A stretch of DNA of 52,257 nt from Acidimicrobiia bacterium (GTDB taxonomy: Bacteria > Actinomycetota > Acidimicrobiia > Spongiisociales > Spongiisociaceae): contig WTGI01000017.1 in assembly GCA_011523635.1 (NCBI GenBank), positions 1-52,257 of the forward strand, given 5' to 3'. Shown here in pieces: positions 32,093 to 52,257 of this stretch. The notes below the pieces were generated by a model that was given only the letters and a program-made list of their open reading frames with translations, was not told the origin of the DNA and searched no databases. Within the stretch, counting starts at the first letter, position 1, and the number at the start of each line of letters is the position of its first letter. Position numbers and translations under genes: made by a program.

Positions 32093-33936
32093 CCCCATAG
32101 CCTTGACCTTAGGCCCGAGGCGCGCTGGACGGAGCGTTCGATGCCCAGGCGGATAGCGGACTCGGGCCCGACGATCGTCACCCTCTTGGACGCCCGGGTC
32201 ACCGCGGTGTAGAGGAGCTCGCGGGTTAGCAACCGCGAGGACTCCTGCGGGAGCGAGACGACCACCTCGTCGAACTGGGAGCCCTGGCTCTTGTGGATGG
32301 TCAGGGCGTGGACCGTGCTGTGCTCGCCCAGGTAGCCGGGCGGGAACGAGCGGACGCCACCCCGGTCGAACAGGACGCTCGTGTCCTGGCCGGCCCGGAC
32401 CACCACGCCGATGTCCCCGTTGTAGAGGCCCAGGTTGTAGTCGTTCTTGGTGATCATCAGCGGCCGCCCGGGGTACCACTCGCCCCGGTACCGGAGGCCG
32501 GGGAACCTCTCGTCGAGAGCGTCCTCGATGTCGCGCCTCCACTGCTCCACGCTGCCGGGACCCTCGCGATTGGCGCACAGCACCGCCATCCCGTCCAGGC
32601 GGGCCAGCGCCTCCTCCTCGCTGCCGGGCGCCGATGCCGCCTCCACCAACCGGCCGCGGTGCTCGGTGACCCGGCCTCGGAGCTTCCGGAAGCCGGCCTC
32701 GGTCCGGTCCTTCACCCAGTGAAGGCCATCGACTTCCCGGTCGAGCAGTTCCAGCGCCCGGTCGGGATCACCGTCCCGGACCGCGTCGGCGAAATCGGCG
32801 ATCGGACCCTGCTCCTCGAATCGGTGCACCCGCTCCAACACCACCACGCAGCCGGCGATCGCGGGCATGCCGGACACGAGACTCCGCTGTTCCGCATCCG
32901 GCAACCGGGCCGCCGGACCCACTATGTCGGCCAGGACCGTCCCGGCCTCGATCGACTCCAGCTGGTACGGATCCCCGACCAGCACCAGGGTGGCGTCGGC
33001 CCGCACCGCGGCCATGAGCTTGGCAGCTAGGGGCAAAGAGACCATCGACATCTCGTCAACGACCACGATGTCGTGGGGAAGCCGGTTCCGCTCGTGGTGG
33101 GCGAACCGGCCCCGTCCCCACGCCCACCCGAGGAGCCGGTGGATGGTGCCCGTCTGCAGCGTCCCCAGCCGCTCCCGGACGATCGGGTGCTCCGCCCTGG
33201 CGGCGAGCTCGTCGATGACCTCGCCCAGCCGGGCCGCCGCCTTCCCCGTGGGAGCGCACAGCGCCACTCGGGGGAAGTCCGTGGAGGTCTCGGCCAGAGC
33301 GGCCAGCATCCTCGCCACCGTGTACGTCTTGCCGGTGCCGGGACCGCCCGCAACCACGGTCAGCCTCCCGGTCAGAGCATTGACGGCGGCAGCGTACTGC
33401 AGGTTCGGCCTGCCGTCGAGGACGGGAGGAAACAGCCGGTCCAGGACCGTCCGGGTCTCCGACGCGAGGTCAGCCCGGGGTGCGGCGGCGCGCGTGCCGA
33501 TCAGGTTGACCACGCGCTCCTCGTGCCGGTAGTAACGCTCGAGGTAGAGGCGATCACCGTCCAGCACGAGAGGCTCCTCTCCCCTGCCGTCGCCGACCAT
33601 CGCGCTACGCGACACCGCCGCCACCCAATCCTCCGGATCCGGCCAGGGAAGCGCCTCCACCACCTCCGGAGGCCGGCCCTCGATCACCATCGCGTCCCGC
33701 TGCGTGTCGAGGCGGATGCATACGTGCCCGAAGCGGGTGCCCCGAACGGCCAGGGCGGCTGCCAGCATCACCGCCTGGTCGGACTCGTCCCACAACCGGC
33801 TGATGACCGTGGCGGAGTGGACCTCCAGGGGCGAGAGCGCACCCCCGTCGTTGAAGGCCGCCAGCAAGCCGGACGCGCCGGCCACAGCCTGCGGTCCGGC
33901 GATGGCCGCTTCGAGCCGTCCGGAGGCGACCATCAT
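32089..33936 (-). CDS. recD: exodeoxyribonuclease V alpha subunit
   Basis: A 615-residue SF1B 5'-3' helicase subunit of RecBCD. Walker A is VVAGGPGTGKTYTV (197-204 for the core), motif Ia is ALCAPTGKAAARL, and Walker B with motif II is IVVVDEMSMVS. Motif III is LVGDPYQLESIEAGTVLADI, and the C-terminal motif VI region is HKSQGSQFDEVVVSLP with LLYTAVTRASKRV. An N-terminal domain of about 180 residues that contacts RecC precedes it. The ATG at 33936 overlaps the recB stop. RecBCD resects double-strand breaks and loads RecA at Chi. The Gabija island begins about 4 kb beyond the operon's far end. Confidence 0.93.
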   Translation of the reverse strand: MMVASGRLEAAIAGPQAVAGASGLLAAFNDGGALSPLEVHSATVISRLWDESDQAVMLAAALAVRGTRFGHVCIRLDTQRDAMVIEGRPPEVVEALPWPDPEDWVAAVSRSAMVGDGRGEEPLVLDGDRLYLERYYRHEERVVNLIGTRAAAPRADLASETRTVLDRLFPPVLDGRPNLQYAAAVNALTGRLTVVAGGPGTGKTYTVARMLAALAETSTDFPRVALCAPTGKAAARLGEVIDELAARAEHPIVRERLGTLQTGTIHRLLGWAWGRGRFAHHERNRLPHDIVVVDEMSMVSLPLAAKLMAAVRADATLVLVGDPYQLESIEAGTVLADIVGPAARLPDAEQRSLVSGMPAIAGCVVVLERVHRFEEQGPIADFADAVRDGDPDRALELLDREVDGLHWVKDRTEAGFRKLRGRVTEHRGRLVEAASAPGSEEEALARLDGMAVLCANREGPGSVEQWRRDIEDALDERFPGLRYRGEWYPGRPLMITKNDYNLGLYNGDIGVVVRAGQDTSVLFDRGGVRSFPPGYLGEHSTVHALTIHKSQGSQFDEVVVSLPQESSRLLTRELLYTAVTRASKRVTIVGPESAIRLGIERSVQRASGLRSRLWG

Positions 33937-36900
33937 CGACGCCCTGCGAAGAGATCGCTCACAGCCACCACTGCCTGCGGCGGCGGGAACCAGCGCGCCA
34001 CACCGCACCGCTCCCCGTCCATGACCGGGGTGTCGGGACCGATCATGCCCCTAACGAACAGGTACATGGAGCCGCCGAGGTGGACGGACGGCCGGTAGCC
34101 GGGAAGGCGCCATTCGAGGTACCGGTGGAGAGCCACCTGGTACAGCAACGCCTGGAGCACGTAGTTGCCGTGGTGCATGGAGGCAACCAGCGGGCCCGGC
34201 CCGTAGTCGGTCGCGGTGGGCAGCTCTCCTTCGGCCGGAAGCGTGTTGGACTTGAAGTCCATCACCACGTAACGGTCCCCGCGGCCGCCCGGAAGCACGG
34301 TGACGAGGTCGATCTCCCCGGTCAGGAAACCGCGGAACCGATGGGGCTCCAGGTCCACCAGCCGCGAGAAGTAGCCGCGGTGCGGATCATCGCCTTCCAG
34401 GCGTTCGAGCACGACGGCCGCGATCTCACGCAGGGAGGTGGTCGATGCGGAAGTACGCAGCGGCAGCTCGAAGCCCACCTCCTTGAGGGTCCGCCCCGGG
34501 TCGAGATGGCTCAGGGACGGGGCGTCGTCTCCGGGTCCAAGGGGTGTTCGCATCGCCGCAGCCATCCCTCGGACGAAGGCATCCGTCTCGAAGTCCCAGG
34601 AGGCGTGCCGGGTGAACTGGGCCAGTTCGGAGCGGATCGCCGCGGAGAGATCCGGAGAGTCGAAGGGCACGTTCTGGAAGACCCGGTGCACCAGCGACCC
34701 GAACCGGGGACCCCGAGGAAGGTCGTCCATCAACAGCCCGCCGCCCGCTCCGCCCGGCTCGCCGACGTCGGCCGGTTCATCGACCCGGTCGGGCTCGTCC
34801 ATGGTGTCCGCCTCCCCGCCCAGGGGCCGGTCCGGCGACAGGGACGTGAAGGAGACCCGCCGCCAGAAGTAGTCGAGGGAACGATCGAGGCGGGCCCGTT
34901 CGAGCCGGCCGGGAACCCGCCGCACCCCCGTGTACGGCACCACCGGCTGGGGCGCGGTCAGGATGGTCTGGCTGATGGTCCCCCCGGAGACATCGATCAG
35001 CCGCTCGACCGCGCGATCGGGGTCACCCCCGCGGCTGAGGAGTTGGTAAAGCTTGGTCTCGCCCGAGTCCCTGGTGTTCTCGATCCACCACACCACCAAG
35101 CGGTGCTTGGCCCTGGTGAGCGCCACGTACAGCAACCGGCCCTCCTCGGCAGTGTCCTCGGCCATGGCCGACTTCTTATGGGACTCGAAGCCGGGAGAGG
35201 TGGGACCGCCTACGTCGACCACACGTCGACGGGGTTCACCCTCGGGAGCCGGCTCGGGATCGTGGAAGACGGGAACCTTGGGCTTGATCCGGGGGATATC
35301 CCACAGGTACGGCGCCAGCACCACGGGGTATTCCAGACCCTTGGCAGCGTGGATCGTCAGGACCTGGACCGCCGCCGCATCGGTGTCGAGGCGGCGCTGG
35401 CGGGACTCGGCGTCTTCTACGTTCGCCTTGGCGTTGCGGGCCGCCTCGTCCATGGCGGCCTCGACCCACACCACCAGCGACCCGACCCGGCCCCTCCGCC
35501 AGGCGGCATGCATCTCCTCGGCGATGTGGTTGAGGTCGGTCAGCTCCCTCTCACCCTCAAACTGGGAAAGCACCCGCGCGGTGAGGCCTGTGGCCCGGTC
35601 GATGTCGGCGAACATCGCCGGCACCCCGCGGTCGTGGAGCAGGCCCTGCCAACGCAGGAAGCGTTGCTGGAGGTCAAGGATGGCGTCGCCCTCCAGGTCT
35701 ACCACCTCGCGGAGGTTCATACCTACGAGCGGCGTACTGGCCGCCAAGCGCAGGTAGTCCGCCCGGCTGGGCCGTTCGACCGCGAGGAGGAACCGACGCC
35801 AGTGCTCGGCCGCCGGAGTGGCGAACACATTCCCGGTTCGGGCCACCACCGACGGCACGCTGGCGGCCCCGAGGGCCTCCCGGATCATCCCGACTTGGAT
35901 CCCGGTGCGGCACAGCACCGCGATGTCCCCCGGGGCCACCCGCCGCTCTGCACCGTCGCCAGCCGTCAGGAAGACCTCGTTCTCGAGGAGCCGGACCACC
36001 TCAACGGCCACATCCGAGGCGACCGCCTTCCGTGCGTCCGCCACGTAGAAGAACGCCTTGCGTTGCGTGCGGCGCAACGGGAAGTCATGCGAGAAACGGC
36101 GGATCTCCAGGGCTTCATCGACCCCTCGGATCCGGGCAGTCCGGTTCCGGTCGGCCGCCCGCACCCGCCGGTAGCCGATCCGTACGTCGCCGAAGGTGGC
36201 GCCCGCCAGTAACGCGTCGAGCGCGTCTATCAGCGGTCCGTCGCTGCGCCAGTTGGTGGCCAGGGTATGGTGGCCGCCGGGGTCCTCGACCGCCGAGAGG
36301 TACGACTCGATGTCGGCGCCCCGGAAGGCGTAGATCGACTGCTTCGGATCGCCGATCACGACCAGCCGGGATTCGTCGAACACCGCCCTGAGGATCTGCC
36401 ACTGGATAGGGTCCGTATCCTGGGCCTCGTCAACCAGGGCGATCGAGTAGCGCCTTCCCAGCAGATCGCGGGCGCCGGCGCCGACCCGCTCCTCGTTCAG
36501 CGCGTCGCGGGCCTCCACGAGCGTGTCGTCGAAGGTGACCATGCCTTCCGCCCAGAGCCGCCGGGACAGTACCGACTTCATCTCCCGGGCCATCTCCGCC
36601 CGAACCCTCGCCAGTCCGTCCACGGAGGCCGGCACAGGAGTGATCCGGGCATCCGGGATCGTGACGACGACCTTGCCGATCTGGGCCAGGTGCTCCTGGG
36701 TGACCTGCTCGAAGTTGTCGTCCGGCCGGGGAACGGCGAAGCGATCCACCACCAAGTCGCTGGCCGCCCGACGGAGCAGCAGTTCGTCTATCTCACGGGG
36801 CTCCATGTCGCCGGAGAGCCGTGACCGGAACCCGAGCTTCTCCAGCAACCGGAGCGCAAAACCGTGGATGGTGAAGATCTGGGCGCGGTCGAAGTGGGCC

Positions 36901-37235
36901 AGCGCCTCCTCGAGCCGTTCCGAGTACTCACCCTGCCGGGCGGGGTCGGCGTCGAGCAGGACGCAGACATGGTCATCAACCGGCTCTGCATGCGAACCGC
37001 GGAGAGCACTGAGGGTGGTGACGATCCGGCGCCTGATCCGGTCTTTGAGCTCGGCGGTGGCGGCCCGTGTGAAGGTGACCACGAGTATGCGCTCGAGCGG
37101 AAGGCCTTCCTCGGCCACCAGGCGGGTAATCACGGCCGCGATCGTGAAGGTCTTCCCGGTACCGGCGCTCGCCTCGATGACCGTGCGGCCGTCGGCGATT
37201 GGTGCGTGGGGGTCATAAGGACCGATCTCGGTCAC
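33933..37235 (-). CDS. recB: exodeoxyribonuclease V beta subunit
   Basis: An 1100-residue UvrD-like 3'-5' helicase with a C-terminal RecB nuclease. Walker A is EASAGTGKTF (21-30), motif Ia is VVTFTRAATAELKDRIR, and motif II is LVDEAQDTDPIQW. Motif III is VIGDPKQSIYAFRGAD, and motif VI is LYVALTRAKHRLVVW. The nuclease core is in RYVVMDFKSNTLP (D-x-K). I start at GTG 37235, which forms a GTGA overlap with the recC stop; the open frame extends upstream but into recC. Length is normal (about 1,080-1,180). RecB is the motor and only nuclease of the complex. Confidence 0.92.
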   Translation of the reverse strand: MTEIGPYDPHAPIADGRTVIEASAGTGKTFTIAAVITRLVAEEGLPLERILVVTFTRAATAELKDRIRRRIVTTLSALRGSHAEPVDDHVCVLLDADPARQGEYSERLEEALAHFDRAQIFTIHGFALRLLEKLGFRSRLSGDMEPREIDELLLRRAASDLVVDRFAVPRPDDNFEQVTQEHLAQIGKVVVTIPDARITPVPASVDGLARVRAEMAREMKSVLSRRLWAEGMVTFDDTLVEARDALNEERVGAGARDLLGRRYSIALVDEAQDTDPIQWQILRAVFDESRLVVIGDPKQSIYAFRGADIESYLSAVEDPGGHHTLATNWRSDGPLIDALDALLAGATFGDVRIGYRRVRAADRNRTARIRGVDEALEIRRFSHDFPLRRTQRKAFFYVADARKAVASDVAVEVVRLLENEVFLTAGDGAERRVAPGDIAVLCRTGIQVGMIREALGAASVPSVVARTGNVFATPAAEHWRRFLLAVERPSRADYLRLAASTPLVGMNLREVVDLEGDAILDLQQRFLRWQGLLHDRGVPAMFADIDRATGLTARVLSQFEGERELTDLNHIAEEMHAAWRRGRVGSLVVWVEAAMDEAARNAKANVEDAESRQRRLDTDAAAVQVLTIHAAKGLEYPVVLAPYLWDIPRIKPKVPVFHDPEPAPEGEPRRRVVDVGGPTSPGFESHKKSAMAEDTAEEGRLLYVALTRAKHRLVVWWIENTRDSGETKLYQLLSRGGDPDRAVERLIDVSGGTISQTILTAPQPVVPYTGVRRVPGRLERARLDRSLDYFWRRVSFTSLSPDRPLGGEADTMDEPDRVDEPADVGEPGGAGGGLLMDDLPRGPRFGSLVHRVFQNVPFDSPDLSAAIRSELAQFTRHASWDFETDAFVRGMAAAMRTPLGPGDDAPSLSHLDPGRTLKEVGFELPLRTSASTTSLREIAAVVLERLEGDDPHRGYFSRLVDLEPHRFRGFLTGEIDLVTVLPGGRGDRYVVMDFKSNTLPAEGELPTATDYGPGPLVASMHHGNYVLQALLYQVALHRYLEWRLPGYRPSVHLGGSMYLFVRGMIGPDTPVMDGERCGVARWFPPPQAVVAVSDLFAGRR

Positions 37236-40200
37236 ACCGGCTTCTCCACCATCAGGGGTAGGATCGGCCCCCACAGCCTCCCGGCGTACTGCGGGAAGGA
37301 ACTCCGTTCCAGGGCCGACATCGTCGCCAGGTCTGGGAACAGGAACTCGTTGGCCGGATCCTCCGCCTCCCTCGGCAGCGGAGAGTACGGGTCCGGTTCC
37401 CACGTCTGCCCCGCGACCCTCCGGGCGACATCGCGGCGGCTACCCATCTTCCGCTGCCAGCCATAGGAGGTCTCGCAGGGCAAAGGGATGGGGGTGGTGA
37501 GGCCTTCTACGTACAGTTCGACGAGGTCCGACAGCAATCCCTCCGCCTGGTATCGGCGACGCTCCGCGTCGCCGCGGATCGGTCCGATCCTCACGCTCCG
37601 GAGCTTGTCGCCCCGAAGGTGGCGTCCGAGCAGCAACCCTTGCCAGGAGCGATGCGGGTCCAGCGCCGACAGGAAAACCACCTGGACGAAGGCTCTCAGG
37701 CGTTGCTTACCCTTGAGCCTCGAAGGGGTAACCATGTCGACTCGGGAGGCGCCCGGATCGGCCGTTATCACGCCCTCGACCGTGCGGCCGCCCACCTGCA
37801 CCGCTCCGGTGAACTGCTCGTGCCGCTCCGGGTCGTATCCCACCTCCCTGGCCGCCTCCCACAGTTCGACCGCCCGCTGCCGGGCCCGGTCGAGGCCTGC
37901 CCGCCCGAGGTTGCCGGGCGGCAGGCTGTCGCCGGCTCGTTCGTGAACTTCGAGAGAGTTGATCGGATGACCGGACAACAATCCCGTGAGGAAGCGGTTG
38001 GTGACCTGCCACTCCTCCAAGTGGCCGAGCTTGGTGGGCACGGTGTCGTCGGGGATCTCTCCCTGGCGCGGGATCGTGAAGCCGAGGCGGGAGCGGATGA
38101 ACTCGCGGGCGGGATGTTCGAGAAAGCGGCTCAGGTCGGCGAGCCGGATCACCGAGAAGAGATCACCCTCGGGAACCGGCAGCGACAACCGTGTTTCTTC
38201 GCGACCGTTACGACGTTGGACAGCCACCGATCCCTGGAACTGCATGGGGTCGAACCCCCACGGTCCGGACACGCCAAGACCCCCGGAGACGAAGTTGACC
38301 TCGCTGAACGGCTGGAGGGGATGGTGGGTCCGGATGCTCTCGAGACCCACCTCCCCTGCGATGCCCGCCAGGACGTCCGCCAACTCGGAGATGGGAACCG
38401 CCGGCGGGTACTCGGCGTTGGTCAGAGGGTCACGCCCCGAGTACGTGACGATCAGGTGGTCCCCTGCCGCCATGACCGCGTCGAGCAGGAGCTGGCGGTC
38501 CTCCGCGCCGCGGTCGGAGTCGCCGACGATCTCGTTGTCGACCAGCAGGTCGTCGCCGTCGGCCCGGCTGCTTCTGGGGAAGCGCTGGTCGTCCATCCCG
38601 AGCAGGCACGCCACCCGGTAGGGCACCGAACGCATCGGAACCAGTGTGCAGACCGTGATGTCCCCGGTCCTGAAGTGCAGGGGGCTCGGCACGTCCTGCG
38701 ACCAGTAGTCCACCACCAACCGGGCCTCGGCAGGATCGAGCAGCGGATCGTCACCGCCTGCCTCCACCCCGGGGAAGCTCTCCTCGAGCAGGCGCTCCAG
38801 CTGGCCCCACTGCCACTGGTCGTCCCAGGCCGGCGCCGCCAACAGGCGAACGGCCGCGGCGATGGCCGGTCCCCACTCGGAAAACGGCCGAGGCTCGCCG
38901 AGAAGCTCCCGGACCGTGACGATTCTGTCGATGATCTGGGCCAGCAGGCCGATCGGCAATGCCTCCTGTCCCTCAGCCCCGTCGAGGGGGGCGATGGTGC
39001 CGACCACCCGGACGCTGCTGTCCGCGTAGAAGACTCCGGAGAGAGCCCGGTCGAGCCCGCGCCGCCAGGTGTGGTCCCCCACCCGGCCCGCGTTCCACCG
39101 GGCGCGGTGGTCGGCATCGAGACCCCAGCGCACGTTGGTGTCCTCGATCACCGCGGCGATCGCATCAGCCGTCTCCTCGTCGAAGCCGAACAACCGCCGC
39201 ACGACCGGCATCGCCACCAGCTCGCGGACCGTGCCCGCTTCGAGGCGGTCGGAGGCCAGGTCGAGGACGGTGGCGGCGAACCGGACCAGCGGGTTGGTGG
39301 CGGCGGGCGCCCGGTCGGCGATCCGGAGGCGCAGGTCGGGCAGGGCATCCCCGCCGGTCCGTTCTCCAAGCGCCCCGGCGCCGGATTCCGGTTCGCCGCC
39401 AGCGGCATCACCGAGGAACACCGCTTCCAAGAGGGGGGCGAAGGTGGCGAGGTCAGGCGTCATGATGACGACATCCCGGGGTTCCAGCGTGCTGTCCGCC
39501 GCCAGGACGTGGAGGATGGCGTCGCGCAGGACCTCCACCTGCCGCCGGGCGCCGTAACAGACGTGGATCTGGATCGACCGGTCCCAGCCTGCGGCATCCA
39601 CCGGAGCGGCTCCCTCGGCAGGAAGGGTGTTGGAGCGGATGTCCTGCTGGAGTCGCCCGAGCAGGGTCGTGGCTGCGGGTCCCGATGCTCCTGCGGATGG
39701 TTCGGTCGTATGGTTCCGGCTCGCCAGGACCAGCTGGAGTTCGCGGCTCTCCTGTGCCCAGGAGCGCAGCAGCGGATGCCTAGGCAGACGCGCGGTGGGA
39801 TCGGACGCTCTTCCGGGACCGGTCGGGATCCCATCGCTCTCGACAAGGACCGCAGTGTCCCGCCACAGGGCGGGCGAAGGATGCAACAGGTGCAGGTGCA
39901 CATCCCGCGCGGCGGCCAGCGCCTCGAACACCTCGATATCCATCGGGTCCGCCGATGTGAGCCCGTACACGAAGATCCGCTCCGGCAGAGCCACATCGAG
40001 CGTACCGCTCCGGATCGGATCCAGGGCCGAGGGGATCAGTTCCGCCAGGCTGGGCGTCCCGATCCGTGCCCGGACCAGCCGCCACAGGCGCGCCTGCCAG
40101 GCGTCCGCCTCGGCTAGGGCCGCCCCGTCCGGCCCGATGTCGTCCTCCTCCGTCCAGGCCCGCACCATCCCGGGCCGGCGCCGGGCGTAGCGGGTGAACA

Positions 40201-40636
40201 GTCCGGCGATCTTGCGGGCCGCCCGCAGGCGCTGGCTGTTGCCGAGCGTATCGACCGCATTCGGGGCGTCGATGAAGCGGGCCAACAGCCACATCCACGG
40301 CTCATCGAGGTGATCGTCCACCACCGATACGACGGTGCGGGTCAGAGCGGGTCCCTCCCAGGCATCCAGCGCCGAAGCCAGCTCGGGAACCGCCCGTAGC
40401 ACTTCCCGGACAAGGCGATACGGGGAAGGGAACCCTACGTTGGCGCATATGCCGTCGCCGGACGTCCGGTCGGCCAATTCCGAGGCGATCCGCTGGGTGA
40501 GCCAGCGCTCGATACCGCGCGTCGGCACGGCCACCACTTCCGGCGCGAAGGGATCCGCCGGAGGTGACGCCAGCATCTCGCACAACCCACCAACCAACTC
40601 GTCGGGATGCGACCCGACGTGGATCAGCAACGCCAC
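37232..40636 (-). CDS. recC: exodeoxyribonuclease V gamma subunit
   Basis: An 1134-residue RecC-type protein, an inactivated helicase that recognises Chi. It begins MALLIHVGSHPDELVGGLCEML, continues with AVPTRGIERWLTQRIA (the family's N-terminal signature V-P-x-x-G-x-x-x-W-L), RDVVIMTPDLATFAPLLEAVF and VCTLVPMRSVPYRVACLLGMDD (usual T-F-C-x-L-x-P-M-R-x-I-P). It lacks a Walker A lysine loop, as expected. The GTG start at 40636 has no strong ribosome-binding site. It leads the recC-recB-recD operon. Confidence 0.9.
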   Translation of the reverse strand: MALLIHVGSHPDELVGGLCEMLASPPADPFAPEVVAVPTRGIERWLTQRIASELADRTSGDGICANVGFPSPYRLVREVLRAVPELASALDAWEGPALTRTVVSVVDDHLDEPWMWLLARFIDAPNAVDTLGNSQRLRAARKIAGLFTRYARRRPGMVRAWTEEDDIGPDGAALAEADAWQARLWRLVRARIGTPSLAELIPSALDPIRSGTLDVALPERIFVYGLTSADPMDIEVFEALAAARDVHLHLLHPSPALWRDTAVLVESDGIPTGPGRASDPTARLPRHPLLRSWAQESRELQLVLASRNHTTEPSAGASGPAATTLLGRLQQDIRSNTLPAEGAAPVDAAGWDRSIQIHVCYGARRQVEVLRDAILHVLAADSTLEPRDVVIMTPDLATFAPLLEAVFLGDAAGGEPESGAGALGERTGGDALPDLRLRIADRAPAATNPLVRFAATVLDLASDRLEAGTVRELVAMPVVRRLFGFDEETADAIAAVIEDTNVRWGLDADHRARWNAGRVGDHTWRRGLDRALSGVFYADSSVRVVGTIAPLDGAEGQEALPIGLLAQIIDRIVTVRELLGEPRPFSEWGPAIAAAVRLLAAPAWDDQWQWGQLERLLEESFPGVEAGGDDPLLDPAEARLVVDYWSQDVPSPLHFRTGDITVCTLVPMRSVPYRVACLLGMDDQRFPRSSRADGDDLLVDNEIVGDSDRGAEDRQLLLDAVMAAGDHLIVTYSGRDPLTNAEYPPAVPISELADVLAGIAGEVGLESIRTHHPLQPFSEVNFVSGGLGVSGPWGFDPMQFQGSVAVQRRNGREETRLSLPVPEGDLFSVIRLADLSRFLEHPAREFIRSRLGFTIPRQGEIPDDTVPTKLGHLEEWQVTNRFLTGLLSGHPINSLEVHERAGDSLPPGNLGRAGLDRARQRAVELWEAAREVGYDPERHEQFTGAVQVGGRTVEGVITADPGASRVDMVTPSRLKGKQRLRAFVQVVFLSALDPHRSWQGLLLGRHLRGDKLRSVRIGPIRGDAERRRYQAEGLLSDLVELYVEGLTTPIPLPCETSYGWQRKMGSRRDVARRVAGQTWEPDPYSPLPREAEDPANEFLFPDLATMSALERSSFPQYAGRLWGPILPLMVEKPV

Positions 40637-42985: not shown

Positions 42986-44119
42986 CTAGCAGCACTCAGT
43001 TGCCGACGGTACCGGACCGACCCCGTGAGGAAGCTTGTCCACCGCCTTGCTGTGCTGGTCTAGTTTCCGGAAGAAGTCGCGATAGACCGCGTCCCTGTCG
43101 ACGTCGGTGGCCTCGCTCATCAGCGGCCGGCTGGGAAGATGCCTCCACTTGAGATCCCCGTCCAAGGTGGGAGTCGGCACGAAGGCGGTGGGCACCCACG
43201 TGGGATCGATCAGCCATGCGAAGTTGATGAAATCCCAGCACACCCAGGACTGCCCCGGGAAGGGCTCCACGAGCCGTTGTGCCCGGAGGCGGTTGTTGGT
43301 GTACAGGTAGTGGAGGTAGCTGCCTATCTCTCCCCGACCGTTGACCCACCGCTCCGACTCAGGCAAAGACATCACGAGTTGCTCGCCGATGTAGTAGCCC
43401 GGCAGGTACAGGAGCGGAACGCCGGAGTCGAAGAGCAACCGGGAGGCGTGCTGGTCCTGCACCAGGTTCATCGAGGGTGAGTTGCTGAACCTCACGAACG
43501 TCGGGTAGCCGGACGTCCACGACACCACCATCCGGGTGATGATCTCCGGCTCCATCAGCAGAGCCGCGGCGATGTTGGTGACCGCCCCGATCGCCACGAC
43601 ATGGAGCAGCCGGTCGTCGTCCGCCATGGCGGCTTCGATGATCCGCCGGGCGCCTTCGCTGTCCACGATGTCGTCGGGTGACTCCATGAACCGGTCAGCC
43701 CCGCGAAAGGCCACCCCATCCGATGACATGCCAAGCCAGCCCATGAGGGTGCCGATCTCGGCGAACGACATCTCCATACCTTCAGCCGTCGTCTCGAACT
43801 CGACATCCTCGGGGTCGACCCCTGCGGCCCTCAGCCGGTGCAACCAGGCCGCGATGTCGTCAACCTCGCCGGCGGTCGAATGATCGACGTTCGCCCGGGC
43901 CGCCGCCAGCAGGGGCTCCCTGAAGTAGGCCCGCGAGAACGGAGCGGACACGATGGCCTCGATGTCGACACGCTCGGGCGACAGCAGCCCCCAGGTGATG
44001 GCGAACTGGTCATCGACCTCGTTCGCCGCATCGGTGTCGATCACGACCCGAACCCTGCCCGGCTGCGGTGCCAGCATCTCCATGCGCCGCTCGTCGCTGA
44101 TGTGCGGAAACATTGTCAT
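42986..44119 (-). CDS. nucleoside hydrolase-like protein (inosine-uridine hydrolase fold)
   Basis: A 377-residue protein. The N-terminal metal-binding motif is VIDTDAANEVDDQFAI, the variant in which N-E-V-D-D replaces the usual P-G-x-D-D, with the final Asp ligand expected in SPSMNLVQDQHAS. Central strands LLHVVAIGAVTNIAAAL match the N-glycosidase core. The enzyme hydrolyses the N-glycosidic bond of ribonucleosides using a calcium ion. The substrate of this divergent subgroup is unknown. The ATG at 44119 has GGGAG upstream. It marks the left border of the defence region. Confidence 0.8.
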   Translation of the reverse strand: MTMFPHISDERRMEMLAPQPGRVRVVIDTDAANEVDDQFAITWGLLSPERVDIEAIVSAPFSRAYFREPLLAAARANVDHSTAGEVDDIAAWLHRLRAAGVDPEDVEFETTAEGMEMSFAEIGTLMGWLGMSSDGVAFRGADRFMESPDDIVDSEGARRIIEAAMADDDRLLHVVAIGAVTNIAAALLMEPEIITRMVVSWTSGYPTFVRFSNSPSMNLVQDQHASRLLFDSGVPLLYLPGYYIGEQLVMSLPESERWVNGRGEIGSYLHYLYTNNRLRAQRLVEPFPGQSWVCWDFINFAWLIDPTWVPTAFVPTPTLDGDLKWRHLPSRPLMSEATDVDRDAVYRDFFRKLDQHSKAVDKLPHGVGPVPSATECC

Positions 44120-44656
44120 CGCACTCCCGACCTTATCGAATCGGGCTGGTCTCCGGAAGCTCAGCGGACGCAGTCGGAGACAGCGGTACCGAGTCGTTAT
44201 GTAGTAGGACACCGTGGACCACCAACCCAAGAGAATCCCGTCTAACCCCGCCAAGAGGTCCGAGTACTGGTAGGACATCATCTCCTATCAGCCACTTGAG
44301 GTCACAGACCCAATCAATCGCTGTGTCCGCGTCCAAGTCGCAGGACCGCGCCGAGGCGCGAAGAGAGGGAGTCGCCTCGCCAACCTCAGGAGCCCTACCA
44401 CCTGCCGGAACGACAGCTACCGATACACGCCTCCCCTCGCGCGCCATACCCGCGGCTCCGGAGCACCGCCGGGCCAGAAGACCTAACACGCCGACGCAAC
44501 GTGCAAAGGGCGGTATCATCTCCTTGGGGGAAGAGGATGCTCGGCTAGCCTGTATAGTGGCGCTCCCGAAGCAATGTCACTGTACCTTTTTCTGTTCTAT
44601 CGGAATCTTCGACAAGGTTTGCTTCGTATGGACTACATTAAGCGTGGTAGCTAAAG
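44120..44656. other. 537-bp intergenic region at the border of the defence island
   Basis: No convincing gene is seen: the frames in it have arginine-, serine- and proline-rich compositions typical of out-of-frame GC-rich DNA, and one that reaches past 44656 overlaps gajA. Base composition falls toward the right end, from GC-rich to near balanced. No tRNA, direct repeat or attachment site is obvious. A weak gajA promoter candidate lies at 44609-44639. Confidence 0.6.
44609..44639 (+). promoter_or_regulatory. possible gajA promoter
   Basis: TCGACA (44609-44614) and TACATT (44634-44639) are separated by 19 bp. Both match consensus only partly, but the spacing and position about 18 bp before the gajA GTG fit. 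Confidence 0.25.
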
Positions 44657-46264
44657 GTGAAGTTACGGCAAATAACCTGGCAGAACTACCGGCGTCTTCC
44701 GGACGGCCAGATAGATGTACGGAATCACCTCGTTCTAGTCGGACCGAACGACTCAGGGAAGTCGAGTGTCCTGCGAGCAATTGACCTTTGCCTCGGAGTC
44801 TCAGGTGCCCGGCTAACCACTCTCGTTACGGATCGAGACTTCACCGAACTTTCCGTGCCACTAGTACTTCAGGTGGTCTTGGATGGGATTGAGGACGCTG
44901 ACCGTGCTGCGTTCCCCGACGAGATCTCGACTGTGGCTGGAGAGACCCTCACGGTTGCAATTGAAGCTGTGATCGAAGACGGAGACACCGAACAGAAGCA
45001 AGTCCGTCGTTGGTTTCCGGATGCTGGGCACGGGCGATCCCCCACCCGAGTCCAGTTGAGACAGTTTGGCTGGGCCTACGTACCCCCGACACGGTCTCTA
45101 TTCCGGGAACTGGGATCTGGGTCAACGGGCGCAATACGGACACTCCTGTCTTCTGTCGACCTCACCGATGACCAGACTGCCTTCGACGAGGCAGCCGACA
45201 CGTTTCAGAGCGCGTTGCTCGGATCCGCAGCGCTAACGACCTTTCGGACGGAGTTGGCCGGAGCTTTGTCAGGTGCGTTGCCGAGGACGATTTCACCCGA
45301 TGATCTGAAACTCGCAGCGGAGTCCGAACTGCTTGACGACCCGTTGGCGTCCGTCACCGTCGCCCTAACAGATGGAGACTACTCTGCTCCGATCTTGGAG
45401 CAGAGCGATGGGATCCGAGCTCTGACAGTGTTGTCTCTACTTGCCTTGTCGCATCGGACAGCGTCGATCGTTGGTGTAGATGAGCCCGAGCTTCATCTTC
45501 ATTACACAGCACAGCGAGTGATCGCCTCGAAGTTACGAGAAGGGCATGGCCAGCGTGTACTGGTTACTCATTCGCCCGCAATTGTTGGCGAAATGGACCC
45601 ACTTGACATCGTTACGATGAGAGATGATCGCCGACCTCGTCAACTGGGGACGGGAGCGGACATTGCTGAACTCGAGGCCTACACGCGCCATTGGTCGCAC
45701 AACCTCATCGAGCCTCTAACAGCCCGGAGAGTCTTGCTTGTGGAGGGTCCATCGGACCGAATCATCTGCGAACGGGTCGGACAGCTGATTGGTATCGATC
45801 TCAACCGCAAGGGTGTAGCCATCTTCGAGCTAAGCGGATCCGGTCTGTTTGCCCGCGCGTACAGGCTATTCGGGCCGGACGGCTTCGACCTTCCGGTATT
45901 TGGCCTTCTTGACACGGACGCTCGCGACGAGTGGGCGAGGGCTCTAGGTTGCCGACCTGACGAGATTTCCGATAGCGGTCGATTCGAGGTGTGTGACCGT
46001 GACCTTGAGGCTATGTACGTCGATCTCCTCGGCGTTGACCGAACCCTTCAACTCCTCGTCGCTTCCCCGGCTATAAGCCTCTCGGCGATCAGGAGAGCGT
46101 GTGGAGTCGATCTCGCTGATTTGACCGCGGAAGTTCTAGCCGAGTATTGCGGGCACAAGAAAAGGAAGATAAGAGCTTCCCTAGCGATAGCGGCCGGGCT
46201 AGATAGAACAGAGGCCGCGGCCTTGGGCGCGGTGACGAGGATCGTGCGCGCTGTGGGAACATGA
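44657..46264 (+). CDS. gajA: Gabija system endonuclease GajA (OLD-family ATPase-TOPRIM)
   Basis: A 535-residue protein with an ABC-type ATPase and a C-terminal TOPRIM domain. Walker A is GPNDSGKSS (29-37), a degenerate signature is SDGIRAL (250-256), Walker B is VDEPELHLH (274-282) and the H-loop is THSP (304-307). The TOPRIM glutamate is E363 in LLVEGPSD, the acidic pair is D419 and D421 in LLDTDARD, and a basic KKRK (501-504) follows. In characterised GajA the nuclease is inhibited by ATP and becomes active when nucleotides fall during phage infection, then nicks DNA. The GTG start has a weak site. It overlaps gajB by 4 nt (ATGA). An OLD-type nuclease coupled to a UvrD-like helicase is the Gabija definition. 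Confidence 0.88.
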   Translation: MKLRQITWQNYRRLPDGQIDVRNHLVLVGPNDSGKSSVLRAIDLCLGVSGARLTTLVTDRDFTELSVPLVLQVVLDGIEDADRAAFPDEISTVAGETLTVAIEAVIEDGDTEQKQVRRWFPDAGHGRSPTRVQLRQFGWAYVPPTRSLFRELGSGSTGAIRTLLSSVDLTDDQTAFDEAADTFQSALLGSAALTTFRTELAGALSGALPRTISPDDLKLAAESELLDDPLASVTVALTDGDYSAPILEQSDGIRALTVLSLLALSHRTASIVGVDEPELHLHYTAQRVIASKLREGHGQRVLVTHSPAIVGEMDPLDIVTMRDDRRPRQLGTGADIAELEAYTRHWSHNLIEPLTARRVLLVEGPSDRIICERVGQLIGIDLNRKGVAIFELSGSGLFARAYRLFGPDGFDLPVFGLLDTDARDEWARALGCRPDEISDSGRFEVCDRDLEAMYVDLLGVDRTLQLLVASPAISLSAIRRACGVDLADLTAEVLAEYCGHKKRKIRASLAIAAGLDRTEAAALGAVTRIVRAVGT

Positions 46265-47880
46265 CAGTTCCGGCCCCGGATGGCTCGCAGCAGGCGTTCG
46301 CTGAACTACCTCTCGTCAACGTACTTCTGATCGCCCCGGCGGGATGCGGGAAGACCGAGGCATTGGCCTACCGTGCTCGATCGCTCGTAGACAGAGGGTA
46401 TGTAGAGGCTCCGAGGAAGATCCTCGCGCTTTCTTACTCCAACAAGGCAAAAGAGAATCTATCCGGCAGAATGCGCTTGCATTTTGGGCCAAGATGGCGC
46501 GAGCGTGTAACCGTCACGAACTTTCATGGTCTGGCCACAAGGGTTATCCAGAACCATGGTGTCACGATTGGGATCCCGAGAGATGTTGTCCTTCCGAATA
46601 AGGCGTGGCGTGCTCAAAGGCTTCGCGAACTCAACATTGGATACGGAGAAGCACCTTTGTTTGAAGGTGTTCTACGAGCTGCTAAAGCTGATGATGCCGA
46701 CGATGAGGAAGTTCTCAGCAGGATCTACAAGAGCGGTCTGGAGACCGCGATTGAATATGAGGAAGGGCTGCGTCGTGAGAACCGTATTGACTACGACGAC
46801 CAAATACGGCACGCTCAGCGAGTGTTAGCTAACGACGATGTGGCTAGGCTATATATTGCACACTTCTCTTCCGTGATGGTGGACGAGGTTCAGGATCTGT
46901 CGTTGCAACAACTTCGTCTCGTTCACGCTATAGGCAATGACTGTGTCACATATGTGGGAGATCCTGCTCAAGGTATCTACTCATTTGCCGGCGCTGCACC
47001 TGTTGAAGTATTCAAACGTATCCGGACCCGGTCCCCGATCGAGATAGGACTAGACTATTCGTACCGTTCGGCGCCTGCGGTACTCTTCGCGGTAAATGGT
47101 CTGGCTCGCCAAATGGGAACACAAGAGGTACAGTGCGGGCAACCCGATAGATGGTCGGATAACGGGCACGTGGTTCTTCTCCGGAGCTTGGACACTGAAC
47201 AGGAAGCTCTGAAGCTCCTTGACTTCATCGACCACACAGATCTCAATCAAACTATGTCATTCGGTGTCGTCGCGCGAAGGTCAACAAGGCTCAACGACTT
47301 TCGGGCAATCGCTGAACAGCAAGGCCGTGAGTTTACAGACTGGGGAGAGCCTACCCACATTCCTCGCGTCGTTGAGTTGCTACATCATCACCTCCGAGCC
47401 GCCGAGGCGATGGAAGGGAACACGTTGAGATCGTTGGAAGGACTGTGCCACGCGGCCATCGACCCAGCAGATGCCGAGACTCACGATGAGATTGCATCTG
47501 CGTGCGCAGCTCTGCAGGACCTCGTCAACTCCGGCGCCAGCGTCGCGGAGGCCGTAGCAAAGTGTCGAGTAACCCCAACTCACCTAGACCGACCGGTTCC
47601 GCCGGGTGTACACCTCCTAACAGGGCACCTCGGCAAAGGCCAAGAGTTCGACTGGATTGTGGTTGTCGGCCTTGAACAAGGTCACGTACCCGACTTCAGA
47701 AACACGGCCGGACCTGAGTTAGAAGAAGAACTGCGAGTTCTTCATGTGATGGTCTCAAGAGCTCGTCACGGGGTAGTGCTGACATCAGCCGAGAGGACAT
47801 GGACTCGCTTCGGATGGCGCAGTACCAGAGAGTCACAGTGGCTCGGCCTCTTAGCCCCGGCCGTTACGGAGGAGCTATAA
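46261..47880 (+). CDS. gajB: Gabija system helicase-like GajB (UvrD/Rep fold)
   Basis: A 539-residue SF1 helicase-type protein. Walker A is IAPAGCGKT (24-32), motif Ia is ALSYSNKAKENL, Walker B is VDEVQDL (207-213) and motif III is VGDPAQGIYSFAGA. The C-terminal half has HLGKGQEFDWIVVVGL and VMVSRARHGVVLTSAE (motifs V and VI). It is slightly longer than GajB of known systems (about 490-500). GajB is an ATP-hydrolysing partner that is recruited to GajA. Its ATG overlaps the gajA stop. Codon use and base composition are less GC-rich than upstream, which fits acquisition by transfer. Confidence 0.87.
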   Translation: MTVPAPDGSQQAFAELPLVNVLLIAPAGCGKTEALAYRARSLVDRGYVEAPRKILALSYSNKAKENLSGRMRLHFGPRWRERVTVTNFHGLATRVIQNHGVTIGIPRDVVLPNKAWRAQRLRELNIGYGEAPLFEGVLRAAKADDADDEEVLSRIYKSGLETAIEYEEGLRRENRIDYDDQIRHAQRVLANDDVARLYIAHFSSVMVDEVQDLSLQQLRLVHAIGNDCVTYVGDPAQGIYSFAGAAPVEVFKRIRTRSPIEIGLDYSYRSAPAVLFAVNGLARQMGTQEVQCGQPDRWSDNGHVVLLRSLDTEQEALKLLDFIDHTDLNQTMSFGVVARRSTRLNDFRAIAEQQGREFTDWGEPTHIPRVVELLHHHLRAAEAMEGNTLRSLEGLCHAAIDPADAETHDEIASACAALQDLVNSGASVAEAVAKCRVTPTHLDRPVPPGVHLLTGHLGKGQEFDWIVVVGLEQGHVPDFRNTAGPELEEELRVLHVMVSRARHGVVLTSAERTWTRFGWRSTRESQWLGLLAPAVTEEL

Positions 47881-48053
47881 CTGGACGGTGTCGTCCTAGT
47901 GACCTCACACCAACCGAGCCGCCCGCCCCCGAACGCACGTAAGACACTACGTTGTCCCATATTTCATTGTTTTCCGCCTTAGCAGATTCCTCAACAGCAC
48001 CCTCATGTATAACCAAGTCGTAGATCATAACATTCATGACGCACATGTTGCTT

Positions 48054-48485
48054 TCAGATATCGCCATGACTCTCATAGTATCTGGCTCTCTCGACCGCTT
48101 CCGAAATTGCCCTGAAAGCAACTGTATCGAAATCGACAGTAGTAGCACCCGCCCGCAACCCTTCTAGATCAATTGCTGCCACCTCACGCAGTGCGTCTCC
48201 AAGGTACTGAGGGTAGGTCACCACCAATCCTGGATGCTGGACCTGTACTTGCTCCATTTCTTGCCGGTACTGACCTAAAGCAATGTATGCACCTTCCAAA
48301 ATCGGCTTAGCATCCTGAATAACATGGTCAGATCGTTCCAGCACTGTGAACATAATCACATTTCCCACCGACGATGACTCAAAGAGCGCGCCAGAAAGAT
48401 TACTCTCAAGGCGGCGAAGGCTCTTGGCGGCATCCTTGAATACCATCTCGCACAATCTTAATCGATTTACTTCTGAGTTAGTCAT
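48054..48485 (-). CDS. unknown 143-residue protein in the defence island
   Basis: A soluble, mostly helical protein I do not recognise; it begins MTNSEVNRLRLCEMVFKDAA. ATG at 48485 is preceded by AGGAG. It points toward gajB (convergent), in the most AT-rich part of the window. Nothing in it suggests a nuclease, a Walker motif or a membrane segment. Its position between Gabija and the restriction genes makes a defence or accessory role possible, but that is only context. Confidence 0.55.
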   Translation of the reverse strand: MTNSEVNRLRLCEMVFKDAAKSLRRLESNLSGALFESSSVGNVIMFTVLERSDHVIQDAKPILEGAYIALGQYRQEMEQVQVQHPGLVVTYPQYLGDALREVAAIDLEGLRAGATTVDFDTVAFRAISEAVERARYYESHGDI

Positions 48486-48589
48486 ATTGACTCCTGTATG
48501 TTAATCGTTGCACGATGTACACATCTATATTTGAGCGTGAACTACCTAGCACAGATCCTCCCGCGCCGGATCGTGCACCTCCGGAATTG

Positions 48590-49333
48590 CTACATGATTG
48601 AGCCGAGCCAGACATGCTTGCCTGCGGCGGCGAGGGCGGTCCTGTGCGTCTCGTAGGCGGGCATTAGGCGGTCGACTATGGACCAGAACTTGGGGGTGTG
48701 GTTGAGTTCGCGGAGGTGGGCTAGTTCGTGGACTAGGACGTAGTCGATGAGGGTTGGGGGGAGCTGGAGGGTGGCCCAGTGGATGTTGATGTGTTGGGGG
48801 CCGTCGGTGGGGCGGGCTGAGCCCCAACGGAAACCAAGATCGCGGACCTCTACGGTCACGGATTCTTCTCCGAGGCGGGCGGCCCAGGGGCGTATTCGCT
48901 TGCGGAGCCACTTGGTGCCGACTTCGGTGTACCAGCGTTGCATGGCCTCGGCGCCGTGAGCGATCTGGTCCGACGGGAGGTGGAAGCGGCCTCGGTCGAG
49001 GCGGACGCCGGTTCCGTCTGGGGTGATGGCGAGTCGGTAGCTGCGGCCTAGGTGGGAGAAGCCCTCCCCCGCAACGAACCGCTTGAGGACTGGGGGGCCG
49101 GACAGGGCGTCCTTTTCGATCAGCTTGCGGTAGACCCATTGGCGCTTGGCTTTGACGAAATCGGTAGCTCGTTCGATCGTCACGGCGGGCGGGGCCTTGA
49201 GCACTAGGGAGGCGTCGCGTTCGACCACGATCTCGATCGTCGTTCGTTCGCGGGGTGGGGCCACTTTGAAGAGGAGGTCGCCGACGACCAGTTCGGGGAG
49301 GTCGTGGAGTGCCGCTACAGCCGCGACTGTCAT
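48590..49333 (-). CDS. YgjP-like M48-type metallopeptidase (DUF45) linked to type I restriction
   Basis: A 247-residue protein. The zinc motif HELAHLRELNH (HExxH plus the downstream histidine) is followed by TPKFWSIVDRLMP, the YgjP/DUF45 signature. Upstream are KAKRQWVYRKLI and FRWGSARPTDGPQHINIHWATLQLP. Such genes are often next to hsdR in type I restriction-modification operons, but their role there is unclear. Its ATG overlaps the hsdR stop by 4 nt, so it is co-translated with it. Confidence 0.87.
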   Translation of the reverse strand: MTVAAVAALHDLPELVVGDLLFKVAPPRERTTIEIVVERDASLVLKAPPAVTIERATDFVKAKRQWVYRKLIEKDALSGPPVLKRFVAGEGFSHLGRSYRLAITPDGTGVRLDRGRFHLPSDQIAHGAEAMQRWYTEVGTKWLRKRIRPWAARLGEESVTVEVRDLGFRWGSARPTDGPQHINIHWATLQLPPTLIDYVLVHELAHLRELNHTPKFWSIVDRLMPAYETHRTALAAAGKHVWLGSIM

Positions 49334-52257
49334 GTCAGCCGGTGCTGGTTGGCTTTGGCTAGGGCAACGAGTTCGGCTGACGACTCGTCCAGGCTGTCGA
49401 AGTCGAAGAGGTCGCTGCTGTCGAGTGTCCGCTTGATGGCCTTTCGGAGCTCGTCTTGCTTGTGGGCGTTGTCCCAGAACCCCACCACACGGATGATCTG
49501 GCTGATCCGATCAACCAGGTGCCTGGTCAGGTCGATCAAGCGTGTGCCGGCATCGGACTCGGATGTCGCTAGTTTCTCGGCCATCTGGTTGTGGAACGGG
49601 AGCTCGGTCGACGGATCGAGGCCTGTGTCATCTTCGTCAGTGCGGCCGGCGTTGATCTCGTCGATCAGTTCTCCGAACTCGAATGCGATCTGGTCCCAAC
49701 GCTCTTCGAGCCGATCGAGAATCTCGTCGATCCTCTCTGACAACCTCGCGTAGTACACGGGGTCTTCGTCAACGTGGGTACGTATGTAGTGGCGCGCTGC
49801 ATGTTCCATTTCTGAAGCCTGGGCCCGGTCTGAGCCCATCGCTTTGACATGAGCATGGAAGGCGGGATCGGTGATCCTCAGCGGTTGGATCTTCTGGCTG
49901 AGGTCCAGAACGGTGACGTGAGCGTCGATGAGCCGGCGGACCTTCTCCTTGTACTTGTAGGGATCGAAGTCACCGTCGGGCGTGTCGCGGTATCGGCGCC
50001 GGGTCCAGATCTGGATCTCGCCGAACAGGTTCACATCGTCCACGAAAGGAAGCGCTTCCGGTCTCGGCAAAACCGTGTCGAAGGTGGTGAGGAAGGTCCT
50101 TAGAGCGACGTCGAACTCGGCTCGAAGGCGCTCGTCGGCCAACAACTGGACACAGGCCTCGATCGCCTCGACGGTCGGGACGGGATCGATCCCGCGTTGT
50201 ACAAAGATCTGCCGCACGCGTTCGCGCTGCGGTTCGAGCTTTTCGATCTCGGTGGTGAGCGGACGGAGGGCTCCGTCCACATCGGGATCGAGGATCTTCC
50301 CATCAGCGTTCGCGTAGGCGGTCAGAGCTTGGGTGAGTTGTGCTGAGACTCCGTAGTAGTCGACGACCAAGCCATTGTCCTTTTTCGGTGCGGTCCGGTT
50401 GACCCGGGCGATGGCCTGGAGGAGTTCCGCCTCCTGGATCAACCTATCTAGGTACAGGGCCTGTGCCTGTGGAGCGTCGAATCCGGTGAGGAGCATCGAT
50501 TTCACGATCAGCAACGCCACCGGGCTCCGCTTCTCGTCAGTGGGACCGAGAGGAAGCTTGAAGCTGTCGATGTGTCGCTGTTGACGTTGCTTGTCGGTCC
50601 ACCGCTTGTAATCCGGTGGGTCGTTGGTGTCCTCTGAGACGACCGGGACGAAGTCGAGAGCGCGGAGCAGATCGATCTCTCGGGCCGCGTTCCGCAGGAA
50701 TGACTCTTCGGAATCGGCGGCCAGGCCATATCCGTTCGTAGGGTGTAACTGTCTCTGTTCGATCTCTCGGATGAGATCATCGCGCGCCTTGTTGAAGGCT
50801 GCGCGGTATCGCACGCAGGCCTTCCGACTGGTGGCGACGACCATGCCCTTGAGACCCTCTGGCATCACCGTGCTGACGTAGTGACGCAGGATGTCCCTGG
50901 CCTTCGCTTCGATCAACTCGGGAGCTTCAAGCACCTTCCCGACCGTGGCGTACTTCCTCTGTAAGGTCTCTCGTTGGCTCTCGGTGAGATCAGCGAACCA
51001 TCGGAAGAAGACCTCATCCATCCTCGTAGCGCCCTTGACGGCCGCGTCGGTGGTGCGACCCTCGTAGAGGATCGGTACGGTCGACCCGTCCGCCTCAGAG
51101 TCGGCGAGGGTGTAGCGGTCGAGATAGCCCCCGAAAATTTCCCGGGTCTTCTTCCGCTTGCCCATGATGATCGGGGTACCCGTGAACCCGATCCGGGCCG
51201 CATTGGGTAGAGCATTCATGAGATTGGCGTGCAGTACCGACGCGTGAGAGCGGTGCGCCTCGTCAACCATGACCAGGATCGACTCCGACTCGTTGAGGAT
51301 CGGGAAGGTCTCCCCCTCCTCGACTCTGTCACCACCTGAGCCCTTCTTGTCGCGCACCTTCTGGATCATCACCATGACCACAGCAGGCCCCGGCTGCCGC
51401 AACAGGTCTCGAGCCTCAGGACCATTCCGAGCCACCTTGATGGTCTCGCCTACGAGCGCTGCCGTGTCGCCGAGTTGGAGTTCGAGATCGGTCCGGTCGG
51501 TGACCAAGACAATCTTGAATCTACGGAGTTCGGGATGGCTTCGCATCGCCCTGATAAGGAACGCCATCGTCAGACTCTTCCCCGATCCCTGCGTATGCCA
51601 GATGATCCCGCCTCGGCGGTCGATCTCCCCGTTGCTTGTCTTGGTCTCCCCGGTCAGCAACCGCTGGATCGCCTTGTGAACTCCCCGGTACTGCTGGTAC
51701 CGACTGACGATCTTGGCAGTGCGACCAGCACCAACCTCCATGAACAGAGTGAAGTGCCGGACGATGTCGAGCAAGCGCTCGGGTGCCAGCATCCCTGCCG
51801 TGAGGAGTTCCTGCTGCGTGACCGCGCCTGGGTCTTTGCCCAACGACTCAGCCACCTCCTCACGTGTGGAGGGGAACGGGTCCTTCCAGGCCATGTAGTG
51901 CTCAGGCAGGGCCGTGAACGTCGCCGCTTCTGCCCGCTCGCCGGTTGTGGCAACCGTGAACTGATTGGTCCAGAACAGCTGCTCCGCACCTTCCGGAGTT
52001 GCTGTACCACGCTGGTTGGCGTAGCGGCGGAGCTGATCGATCGCGTCAACGATGCCGCTCTCGGAACCGGGAGGCTTAGCCTCGATGACTACCAACGGGA
52101 TCCCGTTGACGAACAGAGTGACGTCGGGACGGATGTTCGGAGCCTTCCCGGGCGTAGCAACTGGGAACTGCGACACAGCGAGGAAGTCGTTCGCTGACCA
52201 GTCTTCCCAATCGATGTAGTTGATCGTACGATCCCGACCCCCATCCCACCCCTCAAC
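49330..52257 (-). CDS. hsdR: type I restriction endonuclease subunit R, partial (N-terminus beyond window)
   Basis: An open frame of about 975 residues that continues past the right edge, so the start codon and a short N-terminal part are missing. The nuclease core is RPDVTLFVNGIPLVVIEAKPP (PD..ExK type). The helicase has Walker A in HTQGSGKSLTM, motif II VDEAHRSH, motif III FTGTPI and a later LTGFDAPQAQALYLD with RVNR. Upstream of the first in-frame GTG (52176) the frame reads NYIDWEDWSANDFLAVSQF, the usual HsdR N-terminal block, so the gene starts further right. HsdR translocates DNA and cleaves when the HsdS site is unmethylated. hsdM and hsdS are not in the window. Confidence 0.92.
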   Translation of the reverse strand, partial: VEGWDGGRDRTINYIDWEDWSANDFLAVSQFPVATPGKAPNIRPDVTLFVNGIPLVVIEAKPPGSESGIVDAIDQLRRYANQRGTATPEGAEQLFWTNQFTVATTGERAEAATFTALPEHYMAWKDPFPSTREEVAESLGKDPGAVTQQELLTAGMLAPERLLDIVRHFTLFMEVGAGRTAKIVSRYQQYRGVHKAIQRLLTGETKTSNGEIDRRGGIIWHTQGSGKSLTMAFLIRAMRSHPELRRFKIVLVTDRTDLELQLGDTAALVGETIKVARNGPEARDLLRQPGPAVVMVMIQKVRDKKGSGGDRVEEGETFPILNESESILVMVDEAHRSHASVLHANLMNALPNAARIGFTGTPIIMGKRKKTREIFGGYLDRYTLADSEADGSTVPILYEGRTTDAAVKGATRMDEVFFRWFADLTESQRETLQRKYATVGKVLEAPELIEAKARDILRHYVSTVMPEGLKGMVVATSRKACVRYRAAFNKARDDLIREIEQRQLHPTNGYGLAADSEESFLRNAAREIDLLRALDFVPVVSEDTNDPPDYKRWTDKQRQQRHIDSFKLPLGPTDEKRSPVALLIVKSMLLTGFDAPQAQALYLDRLIQEAELLQAIARVNRTAPKKDNGLVVDYYGVSAQLTQALTAYANADGKILDPDVDGALRPLTTEIEKLEPQRERVRQIFVQRGIDPVPTVEAIEACVQLLADERLRAEFDVALRTFLTTFDTVLPRPEALPFVDDVNLFGEIQIWTRRRYRDTPDGDFDPYKYKEKVRRLIDAHVTVLDLSQKIQPLRITDPAFHAHVKAMGSDRAQASEMEHAARHYIRTHVDEDPVYYARLSERIDEILDRLEERWDQIAFEFGELIDEINAGRTDEDDTGLDPSTELPFHNQMAEKLATSESDAGTRLIDLTRHLVDRISQIIRVVGFWDNAHKQDELRKAIKRTLDSSDLFDFDSLDESSAELVALAKANQHRLT

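Follow-up and report, generated by a model that had tools for sequence, protein, structure and literature searches.

Gabija of Bacillus cereus VD045 combines an ATPase-TOPRIM nuclease, GajA, with a UvrD-like helicase, GajB, whose gene follows that of the nuclease. The active-site region of this GajA is reported to hold E379, E383, D432, D434, D511, D513 and K541 (PMC10822852), and the substitutions E379A, D511A and K541A each abolish its cleavage activity (PMC8136825). Two triggers have been put forward, namely nucleotide depletion (PMC8136825) and, in a report that argues against nucleotide depletion, DNA without RecBCD (PMC12407980). For type I restriction, EcoKI is reported to be limited by ClpXP (PMC12255303), and the RptR-RMS-DarTG-M48 island presented in the same report is the nearest precedent we found for the locus analysed here, whose parts are of known kinds and whose arrangement alone is of interest.

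The window, that is the whole stretch of 52,257 nucleotides analysed, is one complete contig (C31 of genome G000, which comprises 3,146,511 bases in 91 contigs with a contamination of 3.73%), and its right edge is the contig end, which lies inside hsdR. The preliminary description of positions 44,657 to 52,257 had proposed a Gabija system, a type I restriction operon and a defence island, and all three were upheld, by profile matches, by the genes of a second contig (C44) and by comparison of the site among relatives. The features are as follows:

32089..40636, minus strand: recC-recB-recD, neighbour of the island and outside it (TIGR01450 and TIGR01447 above their cut-offs; TIGR00609 E 1.6e-176, below its cut-off)
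42986..44119, minus strand: nucleoside hydrolase gene (NH), conserved and bordering the variable site on its left (PF01156, E 1.2e-12; 85-92% DNA identity, ten relatives)
44207..44467, no strand assigned: 5' part of a decayed isocitrate/isopropylmalate-dehydrogenase-like gene (70% identity to C30:27860-28133; 69% to the 5' end of the PF00180 gene of relative G013)
44657..46264, plus strand: gajA, ATPase and TOPRIM nuclease of the OLD family (PDLC00075, E 3.7e-140; PF20469; model compared with solved GajA and OLD structures)
46261..47880, plus strand: gajB, UvrD-like SF1 helicase (PDLC00121, E 4.4e-145; PF00580, E 1.4e-31)
48054..48485, minus strand: orphan gene, 143 aa (upstream AGGAG, codon-position bias, ORF length)
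48590..49333, minus strand: ygjP-like metallopeptidase gene (PF01863, E 4.4e-48)
49330..52257, minus strand: hsdR, 975 of about 1083 aa, N-terminus on contig C44 (TIGR00348, E 4.8e-123; last 20 bases identical to the start of C44, reading frame continuous)

The described 4-nt overlap of gajA, which starts from GTG at 44657, with gajB, which starts at 46261, was borne out, as was the order in which the unknown gene is followed by a metallopeptidase gene coupled to hsdR, the latter two also overlapping by 4 nt. Since the 143-aa gene, ygjP and hsdR run opposite to gajAB, the five genes do not form one operon. The gene-free border of 537 bp noted on the left has that length (44120-44656) if NH starts at the Met at 44119, the start used by its relatives, but it holds the decayed dehydrogenase remnant; an intact PF00180 gene lies beside NH at the same place in G013. 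No repeat was seen to flank the gajAB cassette, nor was a tRNA seen or, within the set of genes examined, an integrase. An Rfam search with the part of the window and the hotspot loci submitted to it gave no match.

GajA (535 aa) was covered by the PADLOC model PDLC00075 over positions 1-532 of 536, and its ATPase and OLD TOPRIM domains scored above the Pfam cut-offs (PF13175 and PF20469), while no NCBIfam model rose above its cut-off for gajA or gajB. The UvrD-like gajB (539 aa) adjoins gajA through their overlap, which is the pairing of Gabija. All published active-site positions are occupied in the TOPRIM domain (E363, D367, D419, D421, D449, E451 and K504); across 28 aligned homologues six of these are invariant, and D421 occurs in 14, the window GajA among them. 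Profile alignment equates E379/E383 of B. cereus with E363/D367, and D511/513 with D449/E451, the latter segment scoring only 2.3 bits, whereas the equivalents of D432, D434 and K541 were set by order and motif outside that alignment. At position 513 the aligned PDB sequence of B. cereus GajA has E, as against the D513 given in PMC10822852. Of the full catalytic motifs claimed beforehand for gajA and gajB, those of GajA were tested by alignment, on which no loss of TOPRIM residues came to light, and those of GajB, like the motifs of YgjP and HsdR, were judged by eye on the translated sequences.

The GajA model (mean pLDDT 85.7) matched GajA structures across residues 1-535, namely 8sm3 (Z 21.7, rmsd 6.1, 462 aligned) and 8j4t (Z 21.7, rmsd 3.5, 392 aligned). 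The Thermus OLD structure 6p74 outscored both slightly by Z (Z 24.0, rmsd 4.4, 441 aligned), so that the fold indicates the OLD family, not GajA specifically, and it is the profile matches and the adjacent gajB, not the fold, that support the assignment to Gabija.

With GajA alone as query no relatives were found in genome contigs, and alignment A1 was used next. Even the closest GajA relatives are only 54% identical, in an Anaerolinea MAG, and 46%, in Streptomyces montanisoli; the remaining 33 of 35 strong loci lie at 30-39%. GajB shows 53% and 45% identity in the same two genomes, parallel to GajA, indicating that gajAB travel as a pair. After gajA, gajB was found in 28 of the 35 strong loci, with a broken frame in two of these (L063 and L078), and two of the seven loci lacking it (L076 and L086) end at a contig edge. 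Five loci (L083, L085, L089, L090 and L091), four of them from Bifidobacteriaceae, carry GajA-like genes with no downstream gajB match by tblastn and are possible solo OLD nucleases.

For the type I operon, the last 20 bases of the window equal the first 20 of C44, across which hsdR reads on without a frame change and reaches about 1083 aa, as long as its counterpart in relative G005; from this overlap and the open frame we infer the join of the two contigs and the joined hsdR. Extension to the right, suggested as the way to find hsdM and hsdS, yielded both on C44, where hsdR is followed by hsdS, hsdM and then ATP-synthase genes (atpD and atpC, recognised in the sequence by eye). HsdS matches PF01420 (Methylase_S) with two target-recognition stretches, and HsdM matches PF02384 (N6_Mtase, E 1.1e-102) plus HsdM_N, which across the putative join gives the hsdR, hsdM and hsdS of a type I restriction-modification (RM) system. 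At E <= 1e-35 YgjP was found in none of the others of the 396 sampled genomes of the phylum. A literature search on YgjP, COG1451 or M48 together with restriction turned up nothing useful; our guess, by analogy with ClpXP and EcoKI, is that YgjP might limit HsdR.

Comparison at this locus with related genomes, proposed in the preliminary description, located the site between atpC of the ATP-synthase operon and NH, and its variability is a direct observation, as are the anatomy and the intact frames of the island. Among ten relatives the site is empty in two, holds RM genes with other cargo in four and other cargo without RM in three, and is cut by a contig end in one. In G004, one of the empty cases, 56 bases separate the atpC stop from the NH start, and G007 is colinear and also empty. 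RM genes and ygjP lie beside NH in G002, G005, G006 (split inside ygjP across two contigs) and G013, whose contigs end before atpC on the stretches read; other cargo lies between atpC and NH in G001, G003 and G008. G010 has other genes beside NH, where its contig ends, and a ygjP-like piece on a different contig, and G009 carries the RM operon (72%) on a contig other than that of its recC. The cargo includes PD-T4-5-like genes (G001 and G002), a NucC-like nuclease (G005), PDC-S28 and a Schlafen-type protein (G013), an HKD/Snf2 helicase and a type IIG enzyme (G003), and methylase and PDC-S06 genes (G008); both G006 proteins tested were without a PADLOC match. With at least two defence systems together in the window and cargo that differs at the same place among ten relatives, the atpC-NH site is, judged by sequence comparison, a defence-gene hotspot of the genus. 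At E <= 1e-20 gajA was not found in 390 of 395 genomes of the class, including all 14 genus and family members, and occurs in four of the other 394 class genomes at 35-38% identity.

Degraded extra copies occur among the cargo (loci L036, L034, L031, L024, L025 and L027), namely of the atpC 3' end (G000, G003, G005 and G008), the NH 5' end (G006) and ygjP (G008 and G013), and insertions at the hotspot seem to duplicate the end of the adjoining gene. We also observed, allowing up to 3 mismatches, nine copies of a hairpin sequence of 43 bases in 6 of 59 genomes (L036:4310-4352, L030:5770-5812, L029:1987-2029, L146:8776-8818 and five more); eight of the nine copies lie at the hotspot. Three copies stand where a PD-T4-5-like gene begins that has an RNxxxH motif, which we take to be HEPN-like, and six are without such a neighbour by tblastn. 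The hairpin is not in Rfam and in four copies folds no better than shuffles; it could be a leader or an RNA antitoxin of an AbiF-type system (compare PMC12373285).

The lower GC noted for the left part of the island was evident both in 1-kb windows (0.63-0.72 left of 44 kb, 0.53-0.59 at 44.0-49.0 kb and 0.60-0.63 over ygjP and hsdR) and in GC3, which is 0.60 for gajA, 0.55 for gajB and 0.48 for the 143-aa gene, compared with 0.80 for ygjP and 0.76 for hsdR. To the left of the island, 25 reference ORFs range from 0.76 to 0.90 in GC3; they were picked by a GC3 filter of >0.75, which sets this floor. Thus gajA, gajB and the 143-aa gene look foreign in composition and ygjP and hsdR nearly native, a contrast that divides the island into an older layer of RM genes and a more recent Gabija layer. 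The RM layer is common to G002, G005, G006 and G013 at 78-91% DNA identity, and the Gabija layer is not in them. The same genes at the same place in all relatives with native composition, a finding that was to speak against the island, did not appear, as gajAB is missing there and its composition is foreign.

The 143-aa gene is grouped with Gabija by composition only. Its ORF length was reached in 35 of 2000 simulations, and it is probably a coding, AT-rich orphan. Searches of PADLOC, Pfam, NCBIfam and PHROGs placed the protein in no family, plasmids, phages and viral contigs gave no match, and the PDB gave one at E 1.1; in 395 class genomes the gene gave, besides itself, seven chance-level matches (E 0.003-0.009), and no tblastn match at E <= 0.01 placed it beside gajAB elsewhere in the loci searched, including 80 GajA-related ones. 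Its single-sequence model (mean pLDDT 38.8) was left unused.

We consider it very likely that an intact Gabija pair was recently inserted downstream of an older hsdM-hsdS-hsdR-ygjP operon at the genus hotspot and that the two systems act as separate layers. The pair, a putative class 2 OLD nuclease and SF1 helicase, would have come in with or beside the orphan gene. By homology, the type I system would cut incoming unmethylated DNA, and GajAB, as a predicted 4:4 complex, would attack phage DNA unprotected by RecBCD or act when nucleotides fall. The recCBD operon beside the site fits a RecBCD-type trigger, yet in 10 of 11 relatives, none of which yielded a gajA match, the distance between recC and the site is about 3-9 kb, so that nearness to recBCD belongs to the site, not to Gabija; the hotspot lies between the ATP-synthase operon and recCBD. 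A general attraction of Gabija to recBCD was rejected. In a control of phylum genomes compared by eye (OLD-TOPRIM matches in 61 of 341 and recC matches in 91 of 341, 41 of these above cut-off), without the window no OLD-TOPRIM match lay within 20 kb of a recC match above 100 bits on the same contig, in assemblies many of which are fragmented, so that pairs may be missed; one genome (G549) has an OLD-TOPRIM match 16 kb from a 19-bit recC match. In one of the 35 strong loci (Terrabacter, L061) recC lies 1.3 kb from gajA.

We hold it to be improbable that Gabija and the type I system are instead coupled in function, Gabija being a backup triggered when a phage blocks RecBCD or, in the manner of Ocr, the type I enzyme, which would select for linkage. 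Gabija is indeed reported to sense the anti-restriction protein Ocr (PMC12255303) and to act on DNA without RecBCD (PMC12407980). The flank holds hsdR and ygjP in 3 of 80 GajA-related loci (L081, L084 and L100), and hsdR-ygjP-gajA-gajB run in one direction in two of the 35 strong loci, one from Arthrobacter (L081, 2187-9266; ygjP-gajA gap 3 nt) and one from Microbacterium (L084, 2150-9300; gap 58 nt). Moreover, a second, broken Gabija-like pair of the same genome (C38; L037:1188-5587) sits 0.9 kb before an hsdR-hsdS-hsdM operon that is intact. This pair is flanked on either side by copies of the hsdR 5' end, of which the final one is the intact hsdR itself; its gajA keeps about the first 40 codons and the TOPRIM part, most of the ATPase domain being lost, and its gajB matches PDLC00132 (E 4.3e-81). 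The third locus, L100 from Paceibacterota, was dropped as Gabija, since the ATPase downstream of its hsdR-ygjP fits AriA and PtuA best. Against coupling, Gabija and RM in the window are opposed in direction and unlike in composition, defence genes cluster anyway, and 33 of the 35 strong loci are without hsdR-ygjP in the flanks searched (up to 6 kb, with few query proteins; an hsdM-like match in L068 is weak). An extension in which RM, ygjP and Gabija are parts of one composite defence that recurs, with Gabija guarding against phages that disable RecBCD or the restriction enzyme and with a docking place for backups at the 3' end of hsdMSR-ygjP, has a similarly small chance of being correct. The two actinobacterial loci and the second pair make coupling between Gabija and type I RM thinkable, not demonstrated, and testable.

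It seems to us very improbable that the role of the OLD nuclease and the helicase is in DNA repair instead of defence: OLD and UvrD proteins are repair-like and recBCD lies 4 kb from gajA, but the patchy distribution, foreign composition, defence-gene setting and best matches to Gabija models point the other way, as does the presence of recC near the site in relatives where gajA was not found. Hardly more credible is a decaying, inactive island; dehydrogenase and atpC remnants surround it and the other Gabija-like locus has lost part of gajA, but the frames of gajA, gajB, ygjP, hsdS and hsdM are open over their full length and encode conserved domains, and neither contig interrupts the frame of hsdR. 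With the RM operon in several relatives, the newer Gabija cassette in one genome and an empty site in two, the preferred reading of separately acquired systems would offer a clean case of a defence hotspot filled layer by layer, in an actinobacterial lineage that has been little studied.

Compared with Gabija of B. cereus VD045, the pair described here has the same gene order, active-site positions and fold, at 13-20% identity in structural alignments; its GajA is shorter (535 versus 578 aa) and belongs to a mostly actinobacterial subfamily, unlike B. cereus GajA, and its GajB is longer (539 versus 494 aa). The TOPRIM domain also aligns with class 2 OLD nucleases of Xanthomonas and Burkholderia (6njv, Z 17.1, rmsd 2.7, 174 aligned), whose entries cover the C-terminal half only. 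The enteropathogenic E. coli island (PMC12255303) likewise unites type I RM with a metallopeptidase, there predicted as M48, and with a further defence system, but there DarTG lies between hsdS and hsdR under a repressor, whereas in the window Gabija lies beyond ygjP and runs in the opposite direction.
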